From Solwaraspora sp. WMMD791 (lineage in GTDB: Bacteria; Actinomycetota; Actinomycetes; Mycobacteriales; Micromonosporaceae): 64,000 nt of DNA. The translations under genes were made by a program, and so were the position numbers. How positions within the stretch are numbered: position 1 is the first letter of the stretch; each line of letters opens with the position of its first letter. The notes below the pieces were generated by a model that searched no databases, had not been told where the DNA came from, and saw only the letters and a list, made by a program, of their open reading frames with translations. The stretch spans positions 2,170,001 to 2,234,000 of the forward strand of contig NZ_CP120737.1 in NCBI RefSeq assembly GCF_029581195.1. Direction: 5' to 3'. Positions 19,663-32,327 of this stretch are shown here, piece by piece.

Positions 19663-20418
19663 ATGAGGCGGCTGCGGCAGGCGCTACGCGAACCGGCGGT
19701 CGCCCGGTTCGCGGCCCTGCTCGCGCTGATCGCCGGCTGCGGTCTGCTGGTGCTGCTGATCCCCCGGCCCGACCTGGCGGCCCTGTCCGGCCTGCCGGAC
19801 CGGCTCGGCATGGCGGCACCGGTGCTGGCCGTGGTGGGCGGCGCCCTGCTGCTGACCGTACTGGTGCCCCGGACCTTCATCACGCTGACCTGGGGCGCGC
19901 TGTTCGGCCCGGTCGCCGGAGCCGGTTACAGCCTGGCTGCGGCGACGCTGGCGGCGCTGATCGGCTTCGGCGTCGGCCGGTGGCTCGGCCGCGAGTACGT
20001 CGCCAGCCGTACTTCGGCGGCACCGGCGGGCGGCCTGGCCGGCCGGACCGGTCGGGTCCGGCTGCGGCTGGCCCAGTTGGACCGGTGGTTCACCACCCAG
20101 AGCGTGCTGGGGGTGGTGACGGTCCGGCTGCTGCCGGTCAGCGGCTTCGGGATGGTCAGCCTCGGCTACGGCACCACCGGAGTCCGGCTGACCCCGTTCC
20201 TGATCGGCAGCGTGCTCGCCTCGACGCCGACCGCCGTCGGCTACGCGGTGCTCGGTGCGGCCGTGGTCGCCCCCGGTGAGGTCAACTGGCTGGCCGCCGC
20301 GCCCGCCGGGCTGGGTGCGGCGGCCACCGTCGCGCTGCTGCTGCGGTGGCGCCGCGCGGTTCGCGCCAGTGCGGCCGCCGCCCGGGTGCCCGACCGCGAC
20401 GTCACCGCGTCGGCGTAG
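19663..20418 (+). CDS. TVP38/TMEM64 (VTT/DedA-like) membrane protein
   Basis: Integral membrane protein of 251 residues with about five to six hydrophobic segments. The VTT-domain core reads VLVPRTFITLTWGALFGPVAGAGYSLAAATLAALIGFGVGRWLGR, followed by VRLLPVSGFGMVSLGYG. Family members are implicated in lipid movement or envelope homeostasis; the substrate here is unknown. ATG 19663 has GGAAGGA upstream and excludes an in-frame extension into the insertion-sequence region. It overlaps the convergent QorB-like gene by 17 nt at the 3' ends. Confidence 0.87.
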   Translation: MRRLRQALREPAVARFAALLALIAGCGLLVLLIPRPDLAALSGLPDRLGMAAPVLAVVGGALLLTVLVPRTFITLTWGALFGPVAGAGYSLAAATLAALIGFGVGRWLGREYVASRTSAAPAGGLAGRTGRVRLRLAQLDRWFTTQSVLGVVTVRLLPVSGFGMVSLGYGTTGVRLTPFLIGSVLASTPTAVGYAVLGAAVVAPGEVNWLAAAPAGLGAAATVALLLRWRRAVRASAAAARVPDRDVTASA

Positions 20419-21229
20419 CCGGGCCGGACCGGGTCGACGCAGCCACGGCCGCCGCGACGTCGAGCGGGTCGGCGGGATCGCGACCGAGCAGCCGGCCGAG
20501 ATCGTCGCCGGTGGCGTCGAGCAGCCCGTGCCGTACCGCGCTCGCGATCGACACCAGCATCGGCGGTTGGAACGGCAGCAACCCCGCCGTGTCCGCCAGC
20601 CGGGCGCGGTACTCCCCCAGGTCGATGGTGCGGTGTCCGACGCCGAGTCGGGCAGCGACCTCACCGGCGGTCACCGGCCGGCCGACCAGGTCGTAGCAGC
20701 GGCCGGCATGCTCAGGTGCGGCGACGGCGACCAGCGCGGCGGCCTCGGCCAGGTCGGCCCGGACGACCGCGGCCAGGGCCCCGGCGCCGAAGGCGGACTC
20801 CAGCCCCTGCGGGCCCCAGGTGAGCAGCGCCCCGAACAGTTCGGCGTACAGCCCGTTGCGCAGCACCGTCCAGCCCAGGCCACTGGCGGTCAGCAGCTGT
20901 TCGGTGACCCGGTGGGCCAGCGCGAAGCCGAGATGATCGCCCGCCGTGGTCAGGCTGGTGTACACCACCTGGTCGACCCCGTCGCGGACGGCGGCGTCGA
21001 TGACCGCCCGGTGGCGGGCGATGACCTGGTCGTCCTCGGCGTAGCCGGCGGAGACCAGCACCAGCGTCCGGACGCCACGCAGATCGAGGTCGGCCGGCCG
21101 GTCGAAATCCAGGTGCCGCAGACCCGGGCGCGGTGACCGGCTGGCACCGGTGACCGGCACCCCGCTACGGCCCAGCCGGTCGACGATGTCCGCACCGAGG
21201 TGTCCGGTGGCACCCGTGACAAGGATCAT
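20402..21229 (-). CDS. NAD(P)-binding NmrA/QorB-like quinone oxidoreductase
   Basis: Atypical short-chain dehydrogenase of 275 residues. The N-terminal GATGHLGADIVDRL Rossmann loop and a QVVYTSLTTA segment resemble QorB-type NAD(P)H:quinone oxidoreductases and NmrA-like sensors. AGGAGG lies 9 nt before ATG 21229. It is transcribed divergently from an HxlR regulator across 80 nt, the arrangement of qorB/ytfH in E. coli and qorA/qorR in Corynebacterium. A role in quinone or electrophile detoxification is inferred. Confidence 0.85.
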   Translation of the reverse strand: MILVTGATGHLGADIVDRLGRSGVPVTGASRSPRPGLRHLDFDRPADLDLRGVRTLVLVSAGYAEDDQVIARHRAVIDAAVRDGVDQVVYTSLTTAGDHLGFALAHRVTEQLLTASGLGWTVLRNGLYAELFGALLTWGPQGLESAFGAGALAAVVRADLAEAAALVAVAAPEHAGRCYDLVGRPVTAGEVAARLGVGHRTIDLGEYRARLADTAGLLPFQPPMLVSIASAVRHGLLDATGDDLGRLLGRDPADPLDVAAAVAASTRSGPATPTR

Positions 21230-21282
21230 TGATGAGGTCCTCCTACTCGCCGTTGCGTTCCTGCGGCGATCGTCCCCATCCC

Positions 21283-21296
21283 TGTCGGCACGGACA
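21283..21296. promoter_or_regulatory. Candidate HxlR operator
   Basis: An imperfect inverted repeat TGTC-N6-GACA in the 80-nt divergent spacer, 14 nt before the regulator's ATG. It is the only clear dyad in the spacer; assignment is inferred from position. Confidence 0.3.
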
Positions 21297-21309
21297 AGAA
21301 GGCACTCTC

Positions 21310-21732
21310 ATGTCACCCACGCACACCGTGGTAACCACCTCGGCCGCACAGCTGGAGCCGTGTGGGCGCGCCGAGCATCCCGACTGCGGCATCCGCGACG
21401 TGCTGGACCGGCTCGGTGACCGATGGTCGGTCCTGGTCGTGGTCGAGTTGGCGGCCGGGCCACGGCGCTTCCGCCAGCTGCAACGGTCGATCGACGGCAT
21501 CTCGCAGCGCATGCTCACGCTCACCGTCCGTCGGCTGGAGCGTGACGGGCTGGTCACCCGTACGGTCTATCCGACCGTCCCCGCCCAGGTCGACTACCGG
21601 CTGACCGACGTCGGCGCCAGCCTGACCCACCTGGTCAAGGCGCTGGCCGACTGGTCACTCGCGCACCGACCGGTGATCGCCGCCGCCCGACAGCGCTACG
21701 ACGACCGCGCCGGCGGGCACCGGGTCGGCTGA
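21310..21732 (+). CDS. HxlR-family (QorR-like) redox-sensing regulator
   Basis: A 140-residue winged-helix regulator: PDCGIRDVLDRLGDRWSVL, FRQLQRSIDGISQRMLTLTVRRLERDGLVTR and DYRLTDVGASL are the family core. C26 sits at the position of the conserved cysteine used for thiol-based sensing in QorR/YodB; a second, C18, is nearby. ATG 21310 with GAAGG upstream is preferred to a start at 21229. It probably represses the divergent QorB-like gene. Confidence 0.87.
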   Translation: MSPTHTVVTTSAAQLEPCGRAEHPDCGIRDVLDRLGDRWSVLVVVELAAGPRRFRQLQRSIDGISQRMLTLTVRRLERDGLVTRTVYPTVPAQVDYRLTDVGASLTHLVKALADWSLAHRPVIAAARQRYDDRAGGHRVG

Positions 21733-21735
21733 ACC

Positions 21736-21769
21736 GTGCCGGCCCGCAGCTGACGCTGCGGGCCGGCAC
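21736..21769. terminator. Bidirectional hairpin terminator between HxlR gene and leuS
   Basis: A perfect 15-bp stem (GTGCCGGCCCGCAGC and its complement) with a 4-nt TGAC loop starts 4 nt after the regulator stop and lies 23 nt beyond the convergent leuS stop. It has no U-tract, as is common in actinobacteria. Confidence 0.75.
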
Positions 21770-21791
21770 GCCGGTGGCAGGAGCACTGGCG

Positions 21792-24632
21792 TCAGGGCAC
21801 CACGCTGACCATCCGGCCCGGGACCACGATCACCTTGCGCGGCGTACGGCCGCCCAGGTGCTCGGCGACGGCGGCCAGCGCGGCGGCCCGTACCTCCTCC
21901 TCGCCGGCTTCGGCCGGCACCTCCACACGCCCCCGGACCTTGCCCGCCACCTGCACCGGGTAGGTCACCGAAGCGGCCCGCAGCAGCGCCGGGTCGGCCA
22001 CCGGGAAATCGGCGTACGCCAGGGAGCCGGTGTGGCCCAGCCGCTGCCACAGCTCCTCCGCCACGTGCGGGGCGAACGGCGCGAGCATCAGGACCAGCGG
22101 CTCGGCCACCTCCCGGGGCGTCGCGGGCAGCCGGGTCAGCGCGTTGGTCAGCTCGATCAGCTTCGCGATCGCCGTGTTGAACCGCAGCCCGTCCATGTCG
22201 GCGCGGACACCGTCGACGACCCGGTGCGTCAGCCGACGCAGCTCGTCGTCGGCGGGCGCGTCGGTCACCCGGGACGCGCCGGAGTGCTCGTCGACCAGGG
22301 CCCGCCACACCCGCTGCAGGAACCGGTACGAGCCGACGACCGCCCGGGTCTCCCACGGGCGGGAGACCTCCAGCGGGCCCATCGACATCTCGTACACCCG
22401 GAAGGTGTCGGCACCGTATGCCTCGCACATCTCGTCCGGGGTGACCACGTTGCGCAGGCTCTTGCCCATCTTGCCGTACTCACGGTTGACGGCGACGTCG
22501 CCGTGGAACCAGCCGCCGTCGCGTTCGGTCACCTCGGCCGCGTCGACGTAGGCGCCCCGCGCGTCGGTGTACGCGTACGCCTGGATGTAGCCCTGGTTGA
22601 ACAGCCGGCGGAACGGTTCGACGCTGGAGACGTGCCCCAGGTCGAACAGCACCTTGTGCCAGAACCGGGCGTACAGCAGGTGCAGCACGGCATGTTCGAC
22701 ACCGCCGACGTACAGGTCGACGCCGCCGCAGTCGGCCGCCGACGCCGGCCCCATCCAGTACCGCTCGTTGGCCGGGTCGACGAACGCGTCGCTGTTGGTC
22801 GGGTCGGCGTAGCGCAGCTCGTACCAGCAGGAGCCGGCCCACTGCGGCATCGTGTTGGTCTCCCGACGGTAGCGACGCCGGCCGGCGGGTGCCCCCGGCA
22901 CACCGGTCAGGTCCAGCTCCACCTCGACCCAGTCGGTGGCCCGCGACAGCGGCGTCTCCGGGTCGGACCCGGCGTCGTCGGGGTCGAAGGTACGCGGCGA
23001 GAAGTCGTCGACCTCGGGCAGCTCCAGCGGCAGCAGCTCGTCCGGCAGGGCGATCGGCAGACCGGTTTCGTCGTAGACGATCGGGAACGGCTCGCCCCAG
23101 TAGCGTTGCCGGCTGAACAGCCAGTCCCGCAGCCGGTAGGTGACCGCGCCCCGGCCGTGGCCGCCCGCCTCCAGCCAGGCGATGATCCGTTCCTTGGCCT
23201 CGGTCACTCCCAGGCCGTTCAGGAAGTCGCTGTTCATCGCGGGGCCGTCACCGGTGTACGCCTTGCCGGTGAAGCCTTCCGGCGGCGTCACGGTTCGCAC
23301 GATCGGCAGGTCGAACACCTCGGCGAAGTCCCAGTCCCGCTCGTCCTGCGCGGGCACCGCCATGATCGCCCCGGTGCCGTAGCCGGCCAGCACGTAGTCG
23401 GCGATGAAGATCGGCAGTCGGGCGCCGTTGACCGGGTTGGTGGCATAGGCGCCGACAAAGACCCCGGACTTGTCCCGGCTCTCGGCGTGCCGCTCGGCGT
23501 CGGTGCGGCCGGCGGCCTGCTTGCGGTACGCCTCGACCGCCTCGGCCGGGGTGGCGTGCCCACCGGTCCACGCCGGGCGGGTGCCCTCCGGCCAGGCCGC
23601 CGGCACCAGCGCGTCGACCAGGGCGTGCTCGGGGGCCAGCACCATGTAGGTGGCGCCGAAGACGGTGTCCGGGCGGGTGGTGAAGACCTCGATCGGCGCG
23701 GCGTCGGTCGGGAAGGTGATGTGCGCACCGGTGGACCGGCCGATCCAGTTGCGCTGCATCAGCTTGATCGGCTCCGGCCAGTCCAGCAGGTCCAGGTCGT
23801 CGAGCAGCCGGTCGGCGTACGCGGTGATCCGCATCATCCATTGACGCAGGTTGCGCTTGAAGACCGGGAAGTTGCCACGCTCGGAGCGGCCGTCGGCGGT
23901 GATCTCCTCGTTGGCCAGTACGGTGCCCAGGCCCGGACACCAGTTGACCGGCGCCTCGGAGATGTACGCCAGCCGGTGTGCGTCGACCGCCTCGCGACGC
24001 TCCCGGTCGGTCAGCTCCGACCAGGCACGCCCGTCGGGGGTCGCCCGCTGCCCGGACTCGTACGCGGCGATCAGCTCGCTGACCGGGCGGGCCCGGCCGG
24101 CGTCGGCGTCGTACCAGGAGTTGAAGACCTGCAGGAAGATCCACTGGGTCCAGCGGTAGAACTCGACGTCGGTGGTGGCCACCGACCGACGGTCGTCGTG
24201 GGCCAGCCCCAACATGCGCAGCTGGGCCCGGTACCGCTCGATGTTGGCCTCGGTGGTGGTGCGGGGGTGCTGACCGGTCTGCACCGCGTACTGCTCGGCG
24301 GGCAGCCCGAACGCGTCGAAGCCCATCGCGTGCAGTACGTTGCGCCCGGCCATCCGCTGGTAGCGGCCGTAGCAGTCGGTGCCGATGAAGCCCAGCGGGT
24401 GACCGACGTGCAGCCCGGCCCCGGAGGGGTACGGGAACATGTCCAGCAGGAAGAGCTTGTCGGCGCCGGCGCGCGGGTGCTCCGGGTCGGCCAGCGGGCC
24501 GGTCGGGTTGGGCGCGTGGAACGTACCGTCCTGTTCCCAGCGCTGCTGCCACCGCCGTTCGATCTCGCCCGCCATCGCGGCGGTGTACCGGTACGGGGGG
24601 ATGTCCGCTCCGGTCTCGGCTGCCTCGCTCAT
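21792..24632 (-). CDS. leuS: Leucyl-tRNA synthetase
   Basis: Class I aminoacyl-tRNA synthetase charging tRNA-Leu. The 946-residue product has the HIGH-type motif ([16 protein letters not shown]), a CP1 editing domain rich in TTRPDT and [10 protein letters not shown] signatures, the KMSKS-type loop [10 protein letters not shown] and an anticodon-binding end. ATG 24632 ([16 protein letters not shown]) with GAGGTGG upstream is chosen over 24737, which lies inside the leader terminator. A leucine-codon leader peptide and a terminator precede it. Confidence 0.97.
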
Positions 24633-24723
24633 CGTCGGTCGCCACCTCAGGTATCGGTCGTGGGCTGTCATTTGTCGGTCCGGGGGCCGGGCGTCGGTCC
24701 GGGGCCGGGGGTACCCGGGCATG

Positions 24724-24748
24724 AAAAAACCCCTCACGCAGGAGGGGT
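24724..24748 (-). terminator. Attenuator terminator in the leuS leader
   Basis: On the minus strand ACCCCTC, a CTGCGT loop and GAGGGGT are followed by a run of T (six in total). This is a classic intrinsic terminator 92 nt before the leuS start, after the leader peptide. U-tract terminators are uncommon in this window, which supports a regulatory role. Confidence 0.85.
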
Positions 24749-24749
24749 C

Positions 24750-24810
24750 GCCGTGCTGTCGCCACCGACGGGGCCGTAGTGGGTCAGGCCTCCGGGTGGG
24801 TCAGCACGGC
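24750..24810 (-). promoter_or_regulatory. Leucine attenuator alternative helix
   Basis: GCCGTGCTG, at the 3' end of the leader peptide (24802-24810), is perfectly complementary to CAGCACGGC (24750-24758), immediately before the terminator stem. A second possible pairing joins GGAGG (24789-24793) with CCTCC of the terminator's 5' arm. A ribosome stalled on the leucine codons would alter which helices form. The exact switching model is inferred. Confidence 0.6.
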
Positions 24811-24839
24811 CGGAGAAGGAGCAGGAAGGCACCGGCCAT
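24801..24839 (-). CDS. leuS leader peptide MAGAFLLLLRPC
   Basis: A 12-codon frame with four consecutive leucine codons (CTG CTC CTT CTC) just before its end. It begins at an ATG six nt after a TAGACT -10 box, so it should be translated from a leaderless mRNA. Position, leucine run and downstream terminator are those of a classical transcription attenuator sensing charged tRNA-Leu. Confidence 0.8.
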   Translation of the reverse strand: MAGAFLLLLRPC

Positions 24840-24845
24840 ACCGGT

Positions 24846-24851
24846 AGTCTA
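24846..24851 (-). promoter_or_regulatory. -10 box of the leuS leader transcript
   Basis: TAGACT on the minus strand, 6 nt before the leader-peptide ATG at 24839. The -35 is weak (TCGATG at 17 nt). Confidence 0.6.
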
Positions 24852-24883
24852 CCGGTACCCGCAACTCACATCGACGGGCCTCC

Positions 24884-25015
24884 GGCGCGGCCGGGGCCCA
24901 CTGCGGGCTCAGTCCCGGCGCAGCCGGGGCTCACTGCGGGCTCAGTCCCGGCGCAGCCGGGGCCCACTGCGGGCTCAGTCCCGGCGCGGCCGGGGCTCAC
25001 TGCGGGCTCAGTCCC
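24884..25015. repeat. Four tandem 33-bp repeats after mnhG
   Basis: Four contiguous 33-bp copies (24884, 24917, 24950, 24983) differ at one or two positions, such as GCGCGG/GCGCAG and GGGGCCC/GGGGCTC. Each contains GCGGGCTCAGTCCC and can fold locally. The mnhG stop codon lies in the last copy. No spacers exist, so it is not CRISPR. Confidence 0.9.
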
Positions 25016-25394
25016 GGTCCCGGCCGGGCTCCATGGCGGTGTCGCCCAGATCCGTTCCGGTCCGCGCCGCAGGCTCGGCGAGGTCGTCGAACCGGCTCTG
25101 CGCCGACATCGGCGTGCCGGACCGGTAGGCGGCCCGGGCGAGTGCGTACCCGCCGACCGGGGCGGTGAGCAGCTGCAGAAGGATGGCCAGGGCCACCACG
25201 ACGGCGGTACGCGGGCTCGGCAGCAGGGTCAGCACGCCGAGCAGGACCAGGGTCAGCCCCAGGCTGGCCGCCTTGGCGACGGCGTTCATCCGGTTGTAGA
25301 TGTCCGGTAACCGCAGCAACCCGATCGCGGTGATCCCGATCAGCAGGGTGCCGGCGCCCAGCAGCACCGTGGCCAGGACCGTCGAGACGTTCAC
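25008..25394 (-). CDS. mnhG: Mrp Na+/H+ antiporter subunit G
   Basis: Small membrane subunit of the Mrp cation/proton antiporter: 128 residues with three membrane segments. The family motif LPDIYNRMNAVAKAASLG lies near residue 30. A charged C-terminal tail runs into the 33-bp repeat array, whose last copy supplies the stop. GTG 25394 overlaps the mnhF stop. Last gene of the operon. Confidence 0.92.
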   Translation of the reverse strand: MNVSTVLATVLLGAGTLLIGITAIGLLRLPDIYNRMNAVAKAASLGLTLVLLGVLTLLPSPRTAVVVALAILLQLLTAPVGGYALARAAYRSGTPMSAQSRFDDLAEPAARTGTDLGDTAMEPGRDRD

Positions 25395-25648
25395 CGGCTC
25401 CTCCGTTCCACCAGGCGGGCGAGCGCGACGGTCGCCAGGAACCCGACCAGGGTCGCGGTCAGCACGAGGTCCAGCAGGGCAGGGATCCGCAGCCGGGCGG
25501 CCAGGACCGCGACGGCGGCGATGAAGACGAAGAAGCCGAAGTCGAGCGCGGCGGCCCGGTCGGCGTCGGTCGGTCCGACGACGAGCCGGACGATCGCGGC
25601 CAGCATGGCCGCCGCGAGTACGCCGAGGACGAGATCGAGTCCGGTCAC
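25391..25648 (-). CDS. mnhF: Mrp Na+/H+ antiporter subunit F
   Basis: An 85-residue subunit with three membrane segments and the conserved VVGPTDADRAAALDF motif after the first. GTG 25648 overlaps the mnhE stop (GTGA), and its own stop overlaps mnhG. Confidence 0.92.
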   Translation of the reverse strand: MTGLDLVLGVLAAAMLAAIVRLVVGPTDADRAAALDFGFFVFIAAVAVLAARLRIPALLDLVLTATLVGFLATVALARLVERRSR

Positions 25649-26124
25649 GACGGGTTCACCTCCGGTCGTCCCTGATCGCCGGCGTCACCAGACCGGTCCG
25701 GCCGGTCCGAGACGCCGGCGTCACCAGACCTGTCGCCAGCGTCCTGGACCGGCCGGACCGCCGGCAGCATGCGGTCCTGCAGCCGGGCTAGCTCGGCGCG
25801 GAAGGTCTGCGGGTCCTCGGCGTGCATGCCGTGGACGAACAGCGTCGGCGGGTCCTGGCGGATCGCCACGGTCAGTGTTCCCGGGGTGAGCCCCACCGCC
25901 AGCGCCATCAGCACGACCTCGGTCGGGGTCCGGGTCCGCAGCCGGATCTCGACGATCCCCGGCGACAGGCCGCTGCCCGGCGTGACGATCTCCCGGGCGA
26001 CGACGAGGTTGGCGACCACCAGCCGTACGGCGAAGTAGCCGATGAACCGCGACACCCGGACGGTCCGCAGCGCGAACCGGCCCGGCGGACTCGCCCACCA
26101 GCCGGTGCCGCCGCGCCCGCTCAT
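25645..26124 (-). CDS. mnhE: Mrp Na+/H+ antiporter subunit E
   Basis: A 159-residue subunit with the family core TPGTLTVAIRQDPPTLFVHGMHAEDP and a preceding membrane region starting at FIGYFAVRLVVANLVVA. The C-terminal ~25 residues are a Gly/Asp/Arg-rich low-complexity tail. ATG 26124 overlaps the mnhD stop. Confidence 0.92.
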   Translation of the reverse strand: MSGRGGTGWWASPPGRFALRTVRVSRFIGYFAVRLVVANLVVAREIVTPGSGLSPGIVEIRLRTRTPTEVVLMALAVGLTPGTLTVAIRQDPPTLFVHGMHAEDPQTFRAELARLQDRMLPAVRPVQDAGDRSGDAGVSDRPDRSGDAGDQGRPEVNPS

Positions 26125-27707
26125 CGCCCGGTCACCGCCTCGACGTACGCCTGTGGGTCGATCAGGCCGGCGGCGGCCTCGGCGGCCAGGTCGAGCAAGG
26201 GTGCGGCGGCCGGACCGAGCAGCAGGGTGGCGACCGCCAGCGCCAGCGCCGGCACGGTCATGGCCGGTCCGATCCGCGCCGGCGGCCGGACCCCGACCTG
26301 CTCCCCGACGTCGACCGGGGCACGGACACCGACCGGGGCGCCCGGCTCGGGCCGCGCTGCGGAGCCGGCGGAGTTGGGTGCCCGGGTGACGCCGGCCGGG
26401 CCGGCCGGACCGGACGGCGGTTCACCCCAGAAGACCAGGTCCCAGATTTTGATCATCGAGATGAGGGTTCCCAGGCTGACCACCACCGCGACGGTGAAGA
26501 TCAGGTAGTCGCCGTCGGCCGCGGCCGCCCGCAGCAGGAGGAACTTGGCCAGGAAACCGGAGAACGGCGGCATACCGGCCAGCGACAGGGCCGCACCGAT
26601 GTAGGCGAGCGCGAGGAGCCGGTGCACCGCCGCGAGACCGCCGAGCCGGTCCAACCGGTCGGTGCCGTAACCCACCGTCACCGCGCCGGCGGACAGAAAC
26701 AGGGCCGCCTTGACCAGGATGTACTGGACCAGGAAGAAGATCGCGGCGGTCAGCGCCGCCGGGCTGAACAACGCCAACCCGATGAGCAGGTAGCCGATCT
26801 GACTGACCATGTGGAAGGCCAGCACCGTACGCATGGTGTGCTCACCGAGCGCCCCCAGCACGCCGATCACCATCGTCACCACGGCGGCGATCCCGATGAG
26901 CCACTGGTACTGCACGGCACCGTCGTAGACCACCGCGACGATCCGCAGGATCGCGTAGACGCCGACCTTGGTCAGGATCCCGGAGAAGAGCACGGTGACC
27001 GTCGGTGGCGCGTACGGGTAGCTGCGCGGCAGCCAGCCGTGCAGCGGCACCACCGCGGCCTTGACCGCCAGGGCCAGCAGCACGACCGCCCCGGCGACGA
27101 CCAGCTCACCGGACCCGGTGGCGCCCGCACCGGCCAGTTCACCGAGGTCGACGGTGCCGGCCACGGCGTAGACCAGCCCCACCCCGGCCAAGAAGATCGT
27201 CGACGCCAGCAGATTGACCGTGACGTAGACCCGACCGGCGGTGATCCGCTCCCGCCCACCGCCGGTGGTCAGCAGCACGTACGAGGGCACCAGCATGACC
27301 TCGACCATGACGAAGAGGTTGAACAGGTCGGCGGTGAGAAACGCCCCGTACGCGCCGGCGCTGGTGATGAGCACCAGTGGTACGAAGAAGGGTCGCCGGT
27401 CGTCACCGGAGCCGGCGGCGAACACGCCGCACGCCAGTTGCACCACCGCCACCGTGACGATCAGCAGGGCGCTGAGGGTGTCCGCCGCGAGGCTGATCGC
27501 GATGCCGGCCGGCCAGCCGCCGATCCGTTCGGCGATGACGTCACCGTCGCGGGTGCTGGCGAGCAGGACGGCACCGTCGACCACCACGGCCGCCGAGGTC
27601 GCCAGCCACCCGGCCCGGTGCAGCGCCGCACGCCCGGGCAGCGCCGTCAGCAGCCCGGCGACCACCAACGGCAGCACGATCGGAAGTACCAGCGCCGTGC
27701 CGGTCAT
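26121..27707 (-). CDS. mnhD: Mrp Na+/H+ antiporter subunit D
   Basis: NuoL/M/N-like proton-translocating subunit: 528 residues with about 14 membrane segments. It has the conserved VKAAVVPLHGWLPRSYPYAPPTVTVLFSGILTKVGVYAILR region and the later AALFLSAGAV and LSLAGMPPFSGFLAKF motifs. A Pro/Ala/Gly-rich insertion precedes the last membrane segment. It overlaps its neighbours by four nt on both sides. Confidence 0.95.
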   Translation of the reverse strand: MTGTALVLPIVLPLVVAGLLTALPGRAALHRAGWLATSAAVVVDGAVLLASTRDGDVIAERIGGWPAGIAISLAADTLSALLIVTVAVVQLACGVFAAGSGDDRRPFFVPLVLITSAGAYGAFLTADLFNLFVMVEVMLVPSYVLLTTGGGRERITAGRVYVTVNLLASTIFLAGVGLVYAVAGTVDLGELAGAGATGSGELVVAGAVVLLALAVKAAVVPLHGWLPRSYPYAPPTVTVLFSGILTKVGVYAILRIVAVVYDGAVQYQWLIGIAAVVTMVIGVLGALGEHTMRTVLAFHMVSQIGYLLIGLALFSPAALTAAIFFLVQYILVKAALFLSAGAVTVGYGTDRLDRLGGLAAVHRLLALAYIGAALSLAGMPPFSGFLAKFLLLRAAAADGDYLIFTVAVVVSLGTLISMIKIWDLVFWGEPPSGPAGPAGVTRAPNSAGSAARPEPGAPVGVRAPVDVGEQVGVRPPARIGPAMTVPALALAVATLLLGPAAAPLLDLAAEAAAGLIDPQAYVEAVTGR

Positions 27708-28216
27708 CGGCCCTCCCGCTGGTGCCGCGTCCCGCCGGGGTCGGCCACCCCGTCGTCGCGGACAGTTCCGCCGCCCCGGGCAAGTTCGTCGGTGACCGCA
27801 CGTGGTTCGGTCAGCACCGGCTCGGCCGGCGCACCGGCCGTTGGACCAGCGGCACGCCGTGGTGCGGTCGGCGGCGCCGCCGGAGTCGGCGACGGCGGCG
27901 CCTCGCCGAGTTCGAGGTCGGGCCGGTCGCGCTCAGGTGGGCTGGCCAGGGTGAGGGCGAGCAGATACACGGTGATCCCGAAGGTGATGACGATGGCGGT
28001 CAACGCGAACGCCTGGGGCAACGGGTCGGCGGTGGTGGCACGGTCCACCTCGCCGAGCGGTGGTTCCCTCCGCCACAGCCCGCCGGCGGCCAGCAACAGG
28101 GCGTTGACGGCGTGCCCGAGCAGGACGAATCCGATGATCACCCGGATCAGGCCCCGGTGCAGGATCAGGTACACGCCGGCGGCGGTCAGGATGCCGACCA
28201 TCAGCGCTACGGTCAT
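27704..28216 (-). CDS. mnhC: Mrp Na+/H+ antiporter subunit C
   Basis: NuoK-like subunit of 170 residues, with three membrane segments and the [12 protein letters not shown] segment. About 60 residues of Pro/Ala/Arg-rich tail make it longer than usual members (about 110-125). ATG 28216 overlaps the mnhAB stop. Confidence 0.93.
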
Positions 28217-31056
28217 CGCGTCGACACCTCCCGGGTGGCCCCGGTGGGCACCGACGCGGCGACGGCTCGCTGCCGCTCGACGACCGGACGCACGTCGGTC
28301 GCGCCCAGCCGGTCCACCGCCGCGGTGACCAGTCCGACCACCATCAGGTAGATGCCGACGTCGAACAGCGTCACCGGTGTCACGGACAACCCGAGCGCCG
28401 ACACCGCCGGGGTGTGCTCCGGAGTGAGGAACGGCTCGCCGAGCAGCAGCGCGGACAGCCCGACGGCCAGGCAGGTCAGCAACCCGCCGGCCAGCAGCGG
28501 TGCCGGCCGTAGCCAGCGCCGCGCCGCCACCCGGCTGCCCCCGTGGGCCAGTTGCCCGAGACCGATCGCGGCCCCCGCGACCAGCGCGGCGATGAAGCCA
28601 CCGCCGGGTTCGTCGTGGCCACGCAGGAACAGGTACGCGGAGACGACGAGCATCACCGGGGTGAGCAGCCGGTGCGCGAACCGCAGCACCAGGTCGGGGC
28701 CGCCACCGCCGGAACCGCCAGCCGCGCTGGTCGTGCCGGTGCCGTCGGGGCCGTCTCCGGAGCGGCCGACCCGGCCGGCCCGGAACAGTCCGATCAGGCC
28801 GAGCGCCACAGCGACCAGGACACTGGCCTCACCGAGGGTGTCGAACGCCCGGAAGTCGACCAGGATCACGTTGACCACGTTCTCGCCGCCGGTCTGCGGC
28901 TCGGCGGTACGCAGGAAGTAGTCCCCCGCTGTCGACAGCTCCCGGCGGCCGGTCAGGGCGAGCGTGGCCACGACCGCGACGATCCCGGCGGCGGCCGCGA
29001 GCGCGCCGGCGAAACAGCTCACCGGCTGCCGCCCGGCCCCGGGCAGCCGGGCCGGCAACCGCCGCAGCACGAGCATCCCGACCACCGCGGTCAGCACCTC
29101 GACCAGCATCAACGTCAGCGCGACGTCCGGCGCACCGGCGAGCAGGAACCAGGTGGCGACCAGCAGGCCGACCAGGCCGAGCAGCGCGATCGCGGCCAGT
29201 GCCGAACGGGCCGTCACGATCCCGGCGGTCGCCACCGCCACGAGCACCAGCAGTGGCCAGTCGCCGGCGGTGGGGCCCGTCGGCGGCCACAGCGGTGACG
29301 GCGGCGACGACGCGAGCGCCCAACTGCCGACCGCACCCAGCAGCACCAGCAACAGCACCGGTCGGAACAGGTGGGCGCCGGGTGAGTCGTAGCGGGCCGG
29401 GCGGCCGACCAGATGACCCAGTCGCAGCAGCGTCGCATAGCTATGGTCGAACATGGTCGCGCCGGCGGGTGGCAGCGGCACCGCGTGCACGATCCGGTCG
29501 ACCCGGGCGCGGGCGGCGAACAACGCGAACCCGAGCCCGACGGCCAGGACCGACAGCCCCAGCGCCGGGGTGAACCCGTGCCAGAACGCCACGTACGGCG
29601 GTTCCCCGCCCGGGTCGGCGTTGCGGGTGGCCTGGTCGATCAGCGGGCCGAGCAGGGCGGCGGCCGGGCCGAGCATCAGGCTGAGCAACGCCGCCACCCC
29701 GGCCGGGGCGAGGAAGGTCAGCGCCGGCTCGTACAGGTCGGGTTGCCGGGTGGGCCCGGCGAAGGTCTCGTAGACGATCCGCGCGCCGTAGGCGAAGGTC
29801 AGCGCGGACGCCGACACGGCCAGCACCTCGGCGGTCGGGCTCAGCCAGGGATCCACCCCGGTCCGGATCAGCGCTTCGAAGATCGCTTCCTTGCTGACGA
29901 AGCCGAGCAGTGGGGCCAGTCCGGCCATCGACATCGCCGCGAGCCCGGTCAGGGTCGCGGTCACCGGCATCACCCGGCGCAGCCCGGACAGCTGGCGGAT
30001 GTCGCGGCTGCCGGCTTCCCGGTCGATGATGCCGACGAGCATGAACAGGGTGGCCTTGAACAGCGCGTGGGCCACCGTGTGCAGCACTGCGGCGGCCAGG
30101 GCGGCCGTGGTGCCGACCCCGATCACGCCGACCAGCAGGCCCAGTTGGCTGACCGTCGAGTAGGCCAGCATCGCCTTGAGGTCGTGTTGGCGCAACGCCA
30201 GGAAGGCACCGAGCACGGCGGTTCCGAGCCCGCCGAGGACCAGTGTGATGGTCCAGGCCGGTTGACCGGCGTAGACCGGCGAGAAGCGGATCAGCAGGTA
30301 GATGCCGGCCTTGACCATCGTGGCCGCGTGCAGGTACGCGCTGACCGGGGTGATCGCCACCATCGCGCTGGGCAGCCAGAAGTGGAACGGGAACTGCGCC
30401 GACTTGGCGAACGCCGCGACGATCAGCAACGCACCGACCGCCCAGGCCGCTGGGGAGGCGAGCAACCGGTCCGGGCGAGCCAGGATCGTGGTGAGGTCGG
30501 CGGTGCCGAGGGTGCCGACCAGGATCACGACGGCGGCCAGCAACGCCAGTCCGCCGCCGGCGGTGACCAGCAGGGCCCGGGTCGCCGGTCGGGCCGCCGC
30601 CGGACTGGCCAGGCCGATCAGGAAGAACGAGCAGAGCGTGGTCAGTTCCCAGAACAGGAACAACAGCACCATGTCGGACGCGAAGACCAGGCCGAGCATC
30701 GCGACGGTGAACAGGGTCAGCAGGGTGTAGAGGCTGGTGCACCGGGCGTCCGGGGTGAGATAGCGCGGACAGTACATCATGATCAGCGCGCCGACGCCGA
30801 GCACGAGCAGCCCGAAGACCATCGACAGGCCGTCCAGACGCAGCGCGAACGCCACCTCCAGCGACGGCAGCCACGGCGCGGTGACCGCGACCGCGCCGTT
30901 GTCGAGCACCACCGGCATCCGCGAAGCGAGTAGTCCGCAGCTGACCAGGTAGCCGAGGGCGAGTGGATATCCGGCGTCCCGACCGAGCAGACGGGTGAGC
31001 AGTGGTGCGGTGGCGGCGAGCCCGGTCAGCAGGACCAGCACCGCGACCATGGTCAA
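28213..31056 (-). CDS. mnhA: Fused Mrp antiporter subunits A and B
   Basis: A 947-residue multi-spanning protein, first gene of the mnh operon. The N-terminal two thirds are NuoL-like ([69 protein letters not shown]). A DUF4040/MbhD region and a C-terminal MnhB domain ([34 protein letters not shown]) follow. TTG 31056 has GGGGAG at 7 nt; ATG 31050 is an alternative. The A-B fusion is common in actinobacteria. Confidence 0.94.
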
Positions 31057-31072
31057 CGCCGGACTCCCCTAC

Positions 31073-31114
31073 CGCAGCCAGCGCGACGGCGCCCGCAGCC
31101 AGCGCGACGGCGCC
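31073..31114. repeat. 21-bp tandem duplication upstream of mnhAB
   Basis: Two perfect CGCAGCCAGCGCGACGGCGCC copies plus a partial third, in the 99-nt gap between the stress-protein stop and the mnhAB start. They could affect read-through into the antiporter operon. Confidence 0.8.
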
Positions 31115-31155
31115 CGCAGCCGGTCGTCGTGCCCGTGGCCGTGGCGCACGCCATC

Positions 31156-31818
31156 TCAGGCGTCCTCGGTCGCGGCGAGCAGGACCGGTCGGTCGGCGTG
31201 GCGCACCACCTGGTCGGCGACGCCACCGAGCAGCCGGGTGGACAGGCCGCTGCCCCGCCGCCCGATGACGATCAGGTCGACGTCGTTGCGGCGAGCGGTG
31301 TCCAGCAGCGCCCGCGCCGGGGTGCCGGTGAGGATCTCCGTACGGCTCGCTCCGGCCCGGCCCCCGGCGGACGCCGCGCCGGCCCGGTCCCGCAGCACCT
31401 CTCGGGCGCGGGCGAGGTCCTCGTCCTCCTCCTCGGTCCGTTCGTCCGGGTCGACCTGGGGTGCCAGGTCGACGACCGTGGCCAGGATCAGCTCGCCGAC
31501 CCGGTCACCGAGCACCTCCCGGGCGGTACGCAGCGCCCGGTCGGCGTCGGCGGACCCGTCCACCGCGACCAGCACCCGTGGGCCGGCGGCGGACGCCGAC
31601 CGGCCGGGTCGCCCCGGCGCGGTCCGGGTCTCCAAACGTCCGGTGCCGGTGGCACCGCGTTCCATCGCGATCGGGACGAACAGCAGTCCTAGCACGGCAC
31701 CGAGCAGATACCAGTACCAGGCGCGCCGGCCCCGCCGGGTCATGAACACCGCGACCGCGGTGACTCCGGAGAGCACCCACACCACGACGACGACCGCCAC
31801 GTACCCGGCCGTGGACAT
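31156..31818 (-). CDS. Membrane-anchored universal stress protein
   Basis: A 220-residue protein: two N-terminal membrane segments (about 4-26 and 33-50), then a UspA domain starting PRVLVAVDGSADADRALR. It ends with the ATP-binding type loop IGRRGSGLSTRLLGGVADQVVRHADRPVLL. ATG 31818 with GAGAGGAG at 6 nt is chosen over the longer frame from 31944. It precedes the Mrp operon on the same strand, 99 nt upstream, so a shared stress or ion role is possible. Confidence 0.85.
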   Translation of the reverse strand: MSTAGYVAVVVVVWVLSGVTAVAVFMTRRGRRAWYWYLLGAVLGLLFVPIAMERGATGTGRLETRTAPGRPGRSASAAGPRVLVAVDGSADADRALRTAREVLGDRVGELILATVVDLAPQVDPDERTEEEDEDLARAREVLRDRAGAASAGGRAGASRTEILTGTPARALLDTARRNDVDLIVIGRRGSGLSTRLLGGVADQVVRHADRPVLLAATEDA

Positions 31819-32327
31819 CCGACTCCTCTCCGTACCGCCCGCCAGGGGCCGCACCCGCGTCCGGCGGACCGGATGACCTGGACCGCGTGAGATGTCGCGA
31901 TGTACTGCCCAGTCCGTGCCACGGTGAATCCTGCTGTCCGTCACGTCCCCTTCGGGTAGGTGTCAGCAGCGAATGGACCGACCCACCCGTGAGTCGGCGA
32001 CGATCACGGACGGTTACCCGGGCCGGCCCGGTTCATGTCCGACGACGCCCAGGTCCTGCGGGTCGTCGGATCGGTTGAACCCGCACGGTCACCACCACGT
32101 ACTCCAGTCGGGAGGCGGACCCCGGCTGCCTGGGCCGGGCCGGGTCATCCTGCGGATGGCGCGGCGACGGGAGGCCGGGTCATCCTGTGGATGGCGTCAG
32201 GTAGGAGAATGGATAGCCTGAGAGGCGTGTGGGGTACCTGCGGCGGGTGGCAACGGTGCCCACGTGACCCGGCGGCGGGCGGCCGGACCGACCGGTCCGC
32301 TGACGCCGCACGACGAGGAGGAGGGTC
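31819..32327. other. 509-nt intergenic region between the usp gene and moxR
   Basis: Divergent promoter region with no convincing gene. It holds a pair of near-identical 24-bp direct repeats (32138-32161 and 32173-32196, one mismatch). A possible -10 for the moxR operon, TAGCCT (32214-32219), would give a ~100-nt leader; no good -35 is visible. Confidence 0.6.
32138..32196. repeat. Two 24-bp direct repeats upstream of moxR
   Basis: GGCCGGGTCATCCTG, N, GGATGGCG occurs at 32138-32161 and 32173-32196, with a 35-bp offset. Each carries the near-dyad CATCCTGNGGATG. The pair lies about 20 nt upstream of the candidate -10, so a regulator-binding role is plausible. Confidence 0.6.

Follow-up and report, generated by a model that had tools for sequence, protein, structure and literature searches.

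The leuS leader and its parts

The window, which is the whole stretch of 64,000 nucleotides analysed here from Solwaraspora sp. WMMD791, carries leuS on its minus strand (21792..24632), encoding a leucyl-tRNA synthetase of 946 aa identified by a TIGR00396 match of 866 bits against a cut-off of 548.4. The gene is preceded by a Shine-Dalgarno-like GAGGTGG (24642..24648, minus strand, located by eye) and, farther upstream on the same strand, by a leader of which it would be the regulated gene; the coordinates of the leader parts were counted by eye. A -10-like element, TAGACT (24851-24846), stands 6 nt before the ATG at 24839, with which a leader ORF of 12 codons plus stop begins (MAGAFLLLLRPC, 24839-24801). 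This putative ORF, which lacks a Shine-Dalgarno sequence and whose peptide occurs in conserved forms, appears to be translated from the extreme 5' end. It contains four successive Leu codons, CTG CTC CTT CTC (24824-24813), including the rare CTT (24816..24818), 8 nt before a helix termed P1. The 5' arm of P1, GCCGTGCTG (24802..24810), is made of the last codons and the stop of the ORF, and the 3' arm, CAGCACGGC (24750..24758), lies 43 bases away and abuts the terminator, which starts at the next base. Together, the arms form 9 perfect pairs (GCCGUGCUG, 24810-24802, with the 3' arm, 24758-24750), and the inner part of the hairpin (24759..24801) is variable and longer than in most Micromonospora. 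The intrinsic terminator, GACCCCTC-ctgcgt-GAGGGGTT with its T run (24724..24749), is built from the arms ACCCCUC/GAGGGGU (24748-24742 / 24735-24729) plus one G.U pair, and its six T occupy 24729-24724. The first-pass annotation had proposed these same parts, namely a -10 box 6 nt before an ATG, a 12-codon peptide with four Leu codons, a 9-bp helix joining the peptide end to the bases before the terminator, and a terminator with six T, and all of its coordinates are right.

The 130-nt leader folds with -61.8 kcal/mol against -48.1 kcal/mol for shuffles (z -4.0). A consensus scan of 24600-25000 returned three terminator-like rows, two of which are the leuS-leader terminator, the mean for shuffles being 0.0. 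No promoter-like site was found in the same scan, because the -35 region is poor and the scan requires both hexamers. When Rfam 15 was searched for T-box, Leu_leader and other families, no match up to E 1 was obtained at the leader, which rules out a T-box or another element of that collection there; two sub-threshold matches lie elsewhere within 20000-32000.

Several neighbouring features may be recorded here. A GC-rich 33-bp tandem repeat (24882-25028, 4.4 copies, 93% matches) sits between the leader and the end of an mnhG-like gene (25008-25394), whose last bases it overlaps. Right after the T run (from 24723 downward, minus strand), most Micromonospora-type leaders show GTGCC(C/T) or ATGCCC, as judged by eye. 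Terminator loops are usually free to vary; in the loop of this terminator (24741-24736), CCTG is identical in many families of the alignment and might be a pause site after P1.

Conservation and phylogenetic spread

P1 was detected in 144 of 206 leuS upstream regions, representing 13 family codes, by a search anchored on a CTN codon, GCCG and CGGC; the first four pairs of P1 and the CTN codon 8 nt before it are therefore partly fixed by the selection itself. Duplicates (L208-L211) were excluded. All 83 leuS loci of the window's family have P1, and so do those of codes f18 (22/22), f19 (19/19) and f10 (4/4), most of those of f30 (5/7) and f26 (3/5), and a few others. P1 was absent from the remaining 62 of the 206 regions, including all those of f2 (0/21), f17 (0/21), f14 (0/5) and f24 (0/6). 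In a scan of named genomes covering 80 loci of Micromonospora, Salinispora, Plantactinospora and Verrucosispora, 77 loci show a short ORF with three successive Leu, and the other three have two Leu at that place. Most relatives have three Leu codons in the run as against four in the window, the fourth, CTC, being seen by eye in three further members of the window's genus (L249-L251).

A covariance model, trained partly on the window's family, recovered the complete element from 78 of the family's 81 genomes and from 39 of its 42 genera. The model finds the element once in the window's own genome; a second copy was considered and rejected, the next match scoring 18.3 bits with E 0.5. The Leu run, the helix and the terminator are thus conserved in relatives, as the first-pass annotation had stipulated, and conservation on this scale (83/83 loci, 78/81 genomes) excludes chance as the origin of the element. 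In a class-wide sample, a LeuS match was present in 295 of 296 genomes and 126 upstream regions, the window's own included, were examined, the genomes outside the 126 having mostly the distant LeuS type or not being among those listed. A wider scan of the phylum placed the element in at least 23 of 296 genomes, three of them from another class (f72), a lower bound set by strict filters and by the few candidates scored per genome.

The element is found not only with the LeuS type of the window. It also precedes a distant LeuS type (37-41% identity) in f72 and at L252, L253, L267 and L272, and it is therefore associated with both types. Both are carried by two members of the window's family, G363 (loci L252 and L259) and G364 (L253 and L260), the distant copy having 37-38% identity. 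By eye, the long-type copy has a leader in each of the two genomes; the short-type copy of G364 (L253) has a Leu leader ORF of its own, and the script found no leader ORF before that of G363 (L252). In three genomes of the other class (G615, G603 and G449, loci L269-L271), leader, P1 and terminator stand before the distant LeuS type, and this occurrence suggests either great age or transfer of the element.

P1 as an RNA helix

For covariation, a check proposed in the first-pass annotation, 51 diverse sequences were chosen from the 144 P1 loci and aligned. Both-side changes affect 5 of 10 P1 pairs, and 95.1% of the P1 cells are paired; the first four pairs are invariant. Over P1 and the terminator helix together, 50 both-side cells were counted, compared with 15.4 in shuffles and 1-20 when the helices were slid. 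For instance, compensatory changes yield the arm pairs GCCGUACUG/CAGUACGGC, GCCGCGACGG/CCGUCGCGGC and GCCGCGUAGG/CCUACGCGGC. The P1 duplex has a mean energy of -19.8 kcal/mol. In 4 of the 144 loci the stop has shifted to a TAG overlapping the first P1 base, so that the last residues of the peptide are lost while GCCGCG is retained, and by eye L261, L262, L265, L266 and L272 apparently show the same shift. What is kept is hence the RNA helix rather than the peptide end, and on this comparative evidence P1 is a real RNA helix.

Leaderless start and the sensor codon

In all 144 P1 leaders, TANNNT lies 6-8 nt ahead of an in-frame start, compared with 0.6% of control positions, the script preferring a start with TANNNT upstream where one exists; a Shine-Dalgarno-like match was found in none of the 144, and both observations would fit a leaderless start. 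At the position 8 nt before P1, 141 of these leaders have the codon CTT and the other three CTC; at L103, CTT is the sole Leu codon of the leader. Across 23 long high-GC3 frames of the window, which hold 1416 Leu codons, CTT is used only 16 times. The spacing holds as well when P1 is not used as an anchor: measured from where the final Leu codon of the run starts, the strongest helix begins after 8 nt in 112 of 132 loci and after 7 nt in 17. This test, like the unanchored stop-distance test and the one that allows overlap, needs an LLL ORF and covers 132 of the 206 regions, since 69 lack such an ORF and 5 more lack a terminator. The CTT at 24816..24818 is likely the key sensor codon, as judged from its position and constancy, and conservation lends strong support to a predicted attenuator that would start leaderless and sense leucine.

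The dimensions of the ribosome give this spacing a possible meaning. With CUU in the A site, the mRNA entrance lies right at P1, behind a 5-nt spacer of the kind seen ahead of the helix in frameshift signals; a ribosome at the stop codon covers the whole 5' arm of P1. From the spacing and this footprint it follows that P1 could form while a ribosome waits on Leu and not after it has finished. As far as regulatory codons in other leaders are concerned, changing LVVI to AAAA in Mycobacterium tuberculosis ilvB1 is described as abolishing induction, so that these codons matter there (PMC13236596), and replacing CUA by CUG in the Salmonella leu attenuator as lowering its sensitivity (PMC1183508). 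Regulatory-codon mutations in Streptomyces coelicolor ilvB had no regulatory effect, according to earlier work as cited in PMC1262725.

The conserved leader could also serve basal or antibiotic-responsive control, given that actinobacterial uORF leaders (whiB7/wblC) answer ribosome inhibition, as a title cited in PMC13236596 has it. We regard this as highly improbable, since the Leu codons beside P1, above all CTT, are kept while other residues vary, the downstream gene is leuS, and similarly laid-out BCAA leaders precede BCAA genes.

Abutment of helix and terminator

A classical antiterminator shares bases with the terminator, the two textbook helices competing for the same bases. At the leuS leaders, 131 of 132 loci have a gap of 0-3 nt between the strongest helix and the terminator, although overlap was permitted and stop and terminator lie anywhere from 23 to 71 nt apart; a first version of the test permitted only 3 nt of overlap and was repeated without that limit. 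In the window the gap is 0. It is -1 to 1 at five of the seven loci with the distant LeuS type, the script having found no leader ORF or no terminator at the other two, L252 and L253. By the same simple test, stop-region helices of Escherichia coli attenuators overlap the terminator, with gaps of -12 for thrL, -6 for trpL and -10 for pheM; for leuL and hisL it showed no overlapping stop-region helix.

The first-pass annotation had stated that the leader contains every part of a classical transcription attenuator. In a classical arrangement, a stall would let part of the leader pair with the terminator's 5' arm, and P1 would hold the default state only. The general parts do match: regulatory codons in a leader ORF are present, as is a terminator, and the Streptomyces leuS elements have been termed classical, with antiterminator and terminator (PMC1262725, in the text available). 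However, pairing of upstream RNA with the terminator arm does not rise above shuffles in the 51 sequences (mean z +0.89, lowest -0.67), whereas thrL (-5.3), trpL (-1.9), leuL (-2.2), hisL (-0.7) and pheM (-3.2) of E. coli all give negative values by the same measure. The best alternative duplex is stronger than the terminator hairpin in only 1 of the 51 and reaches just -4.7 kcal/mol in the window, where no antiterminator sharing bases of the terminator 5' arm was found. Among the 18 window-family sequences of the 51, seven have a CGGGCCG that could pair with GGCCC of the terminator (-12 kcal/mol), as is the case in some Micromonospora leaders; this duplex is a possible candidate for an overlapping antiterminator in those seven, does not exceed shuffles, and is absent from the window. 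The part of the earlier claim that concerns the antiterminator therefore does not hold, since the helix merely abuts the terminator and no overlapping one appears above chance, and we consider the classical arrangement rather improbable for leuS. P1 and terminator are compatible in free RNA, both forming in most of 30 displayed loci. The equilibrium probability of the terminator was tried as a discriminator and dropped, since terminators of the E. coli attenuators also reach about 1.

A proposed mechanism

We consider it fairly probable that the element controls leuS by ribosome-mediated transcription attenuation in response to charged leucyl-tRNA, with free P1 physically blocking the adjoining terminator. 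Transcription would begin on the ATG or right beside it, and the 12-codon peptide would be translated by a ribosome starting directly at the 5' end. With leucyl-tRNA in good supply, this ribosome would reach the stop codon and, because that codon sits inside the 5' arm, bar P1 from forming, so that the terminator would fold and transcription end. When leucyl-tRNA is short, the ribosome would wait within the Leu run, whose final and best-conserved codon is the rare CUU; with this codon in the A site, just 5 nt would be left before P1, which could then stand immediately ahead of the ribosome. With P1 formed and its 3' arm ending 0-3 nt before the terminator stem, the terminator would be unable to close in the exit channel of the RNA polymerase without melting P1, and leuS would be read through. 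P1 would thus represent the antitermination state. Raising leuS when leucyl-tRNA is short requires read-through where P1 is free, and a physical block is the simplest account of it, because P1 takes no terminator base.

The same geometry might be given the opposite sign, with P1 aiding termination as a pause hairpin or as the first part of a two-hairpin terminator, and with a ribosome stalled on Leu disrupting P1 to give read-through. P1 and terminator do fold together, and many loci, though not all, show by eye a pyrimidine-G step 10-12 nt downstream of P1, which is what a hairpin-dependent pause would call for. Hairpin clusters less than 15 nt apart are, moreover, reported to act in concert, and neighbouring hairpins are argued to strengthen termination, in the text available of PMC8355165. 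The footprint considered above speaks against this arrangement, the 5' arm lying just beyond a Leu-waiting ribosome and being fully covered only at the stop; P1 would accordingly be mostly formed under starvation and, if it aided termination, would lower leuS when it is needed. We hold this account to be unlikely.

Slightly less likely still is that the stalled ribosome, held beside the RNA polymerase by P1, itself blocks the terminator, P1 being a mere spacer. P1 folds out the variable inner part and thereby keeps the Leu codons at a near-constant distance from the terminator, which suits this account; the tests applied here do not separate a block by the ribosome from the preferred one by P1.

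Similar leaders before BCAA genes

Leaders of a similar layout precede BCAA genes. In the window's own genome, the ilvB leader (MSLTLSSRVLT, then stop; L278, C1:6440308-6441008) has an 11-bp helix with a gap of 0 to the terminator, and its regulatory codons, GTA and CTT, are rare, as in leuS. The leader of cimA, identified as citramalate synthase by TIGR00977, encodes MTRLVLIIGT, then stop (L279, C1:6453303-6454003), and its helix likewise lies at gap 0, followed by the terminator. The gap of 0 depends in both cases on the core terminator arms chosen, since the terminators reported by the script start 3 nt (ilvB) and 1 nt (cimA) inside P1 through wobble or mismatch extension. The gaps of seven BCAA leaders are 0, 0, 0, -2, -2, 4 and 13, the last (L255) probably stemming from a wrong ORF. 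Ile/Val/Leu leaders were also noted in translation before cimA-like frames at L254, L255 and L258. A search of the open-access literature yielded no paper that deals with cimA attenuation in such bacteria.

More tentatively, and with somewhat more doubt than confidence, these leaders may be joined with that of leuS into one actinobacterial type of two-hairpin attenuator. Its antitermination helix would have no base in common with the terminator, would fit flush between a ribosome waiting on CUU and the terminator, and would act by physical exclusion, on the same plan for leuS, ilvB and cimA. If this is true, position alone can decide termination, by a control helix that merely touches the terminator, and programs that search for overlapping helices miss such switches in the high-GC actinobacteria, which are the source of many antibiotics. 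The fixed distance from CUU to the helix offers a simple rule that can be tested.

Comparison with known systems

The first-pass annotation considered a leaderless attenuator of leuS unusual. That point falls in view of two publications: leuS attenuators have been predicted in S. coelicolor and S. avermitilis (Seliverstov et al. 2005, PMC1262725), and the leuS leader peptide of S. lividans (leuL2), seen by RNA-seq, has been reported to be transcribed leaderless and to be followed by a hairpin and uridines (PMC8079986). Control of an aminoacyl-tRNA synthetase by attenuation has itself long been known from pheST (PMC1262725). As described in the available text of these sources, the Streptomyces attenuator has in common with the window its place before leuS, a short peptide with a Leu run (leaderless, as is predicted for the window), a hairpin and a U-tract terminator. 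The leuL2 peptide, MRAVRLLLSEPR, recurs identically in f18, which is thus probably Streptomycetaceae, and the Streptomyces attenuator is very probably the same element as that of the window. The leader belongs with the actinobacterial leuS leader attenuators in that it precedes leuS, has an ORF with a Leu run, and conserves a hairpin at the ORF end and a U-tract terminator. Compared with what is described there for Streptomyces, the present analysis adds the spread over 13 family codes, the fixed CUU-P1 distance, the abutment and the association with two LeuS types. It is the geometry, that is, the fixed spacing together with the abutment, that seems to be new; no description of an abutting antiterminator or of a fixed CUU was found in the open-access literature, which is weak evidence of absence.

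With the thr, trp, pheST, leu and his attenuators of E. coli, the leuS leader shares an ORF with regulatory codons, a stop in or near the controlling helix and a U-tract terminator, and it differs from thrL, trpL and pheM, whose helices overlap the terminator, in its gap of 0. Actinobacterial ilvB attenuators, including M. tuberculosis ilvB1, likewise have a leader peptide, regulatory codons and a terminator; for ilvB1, anti-terminator and terminator are presented as mutually exclusive by predicted folding, abutment not being discussed in the available text (PMC13236596). Finally, the leaderless polycysteine ORFs of mycobacteria (Canestrari et al. 2020) are short ORFs that serve as amino-acid sensors, as is predicted for the leuS leader ORF; a citing paper describes them as acting by translation attenuation, unlike the transcription attenuation proposed here for the leuS leader.
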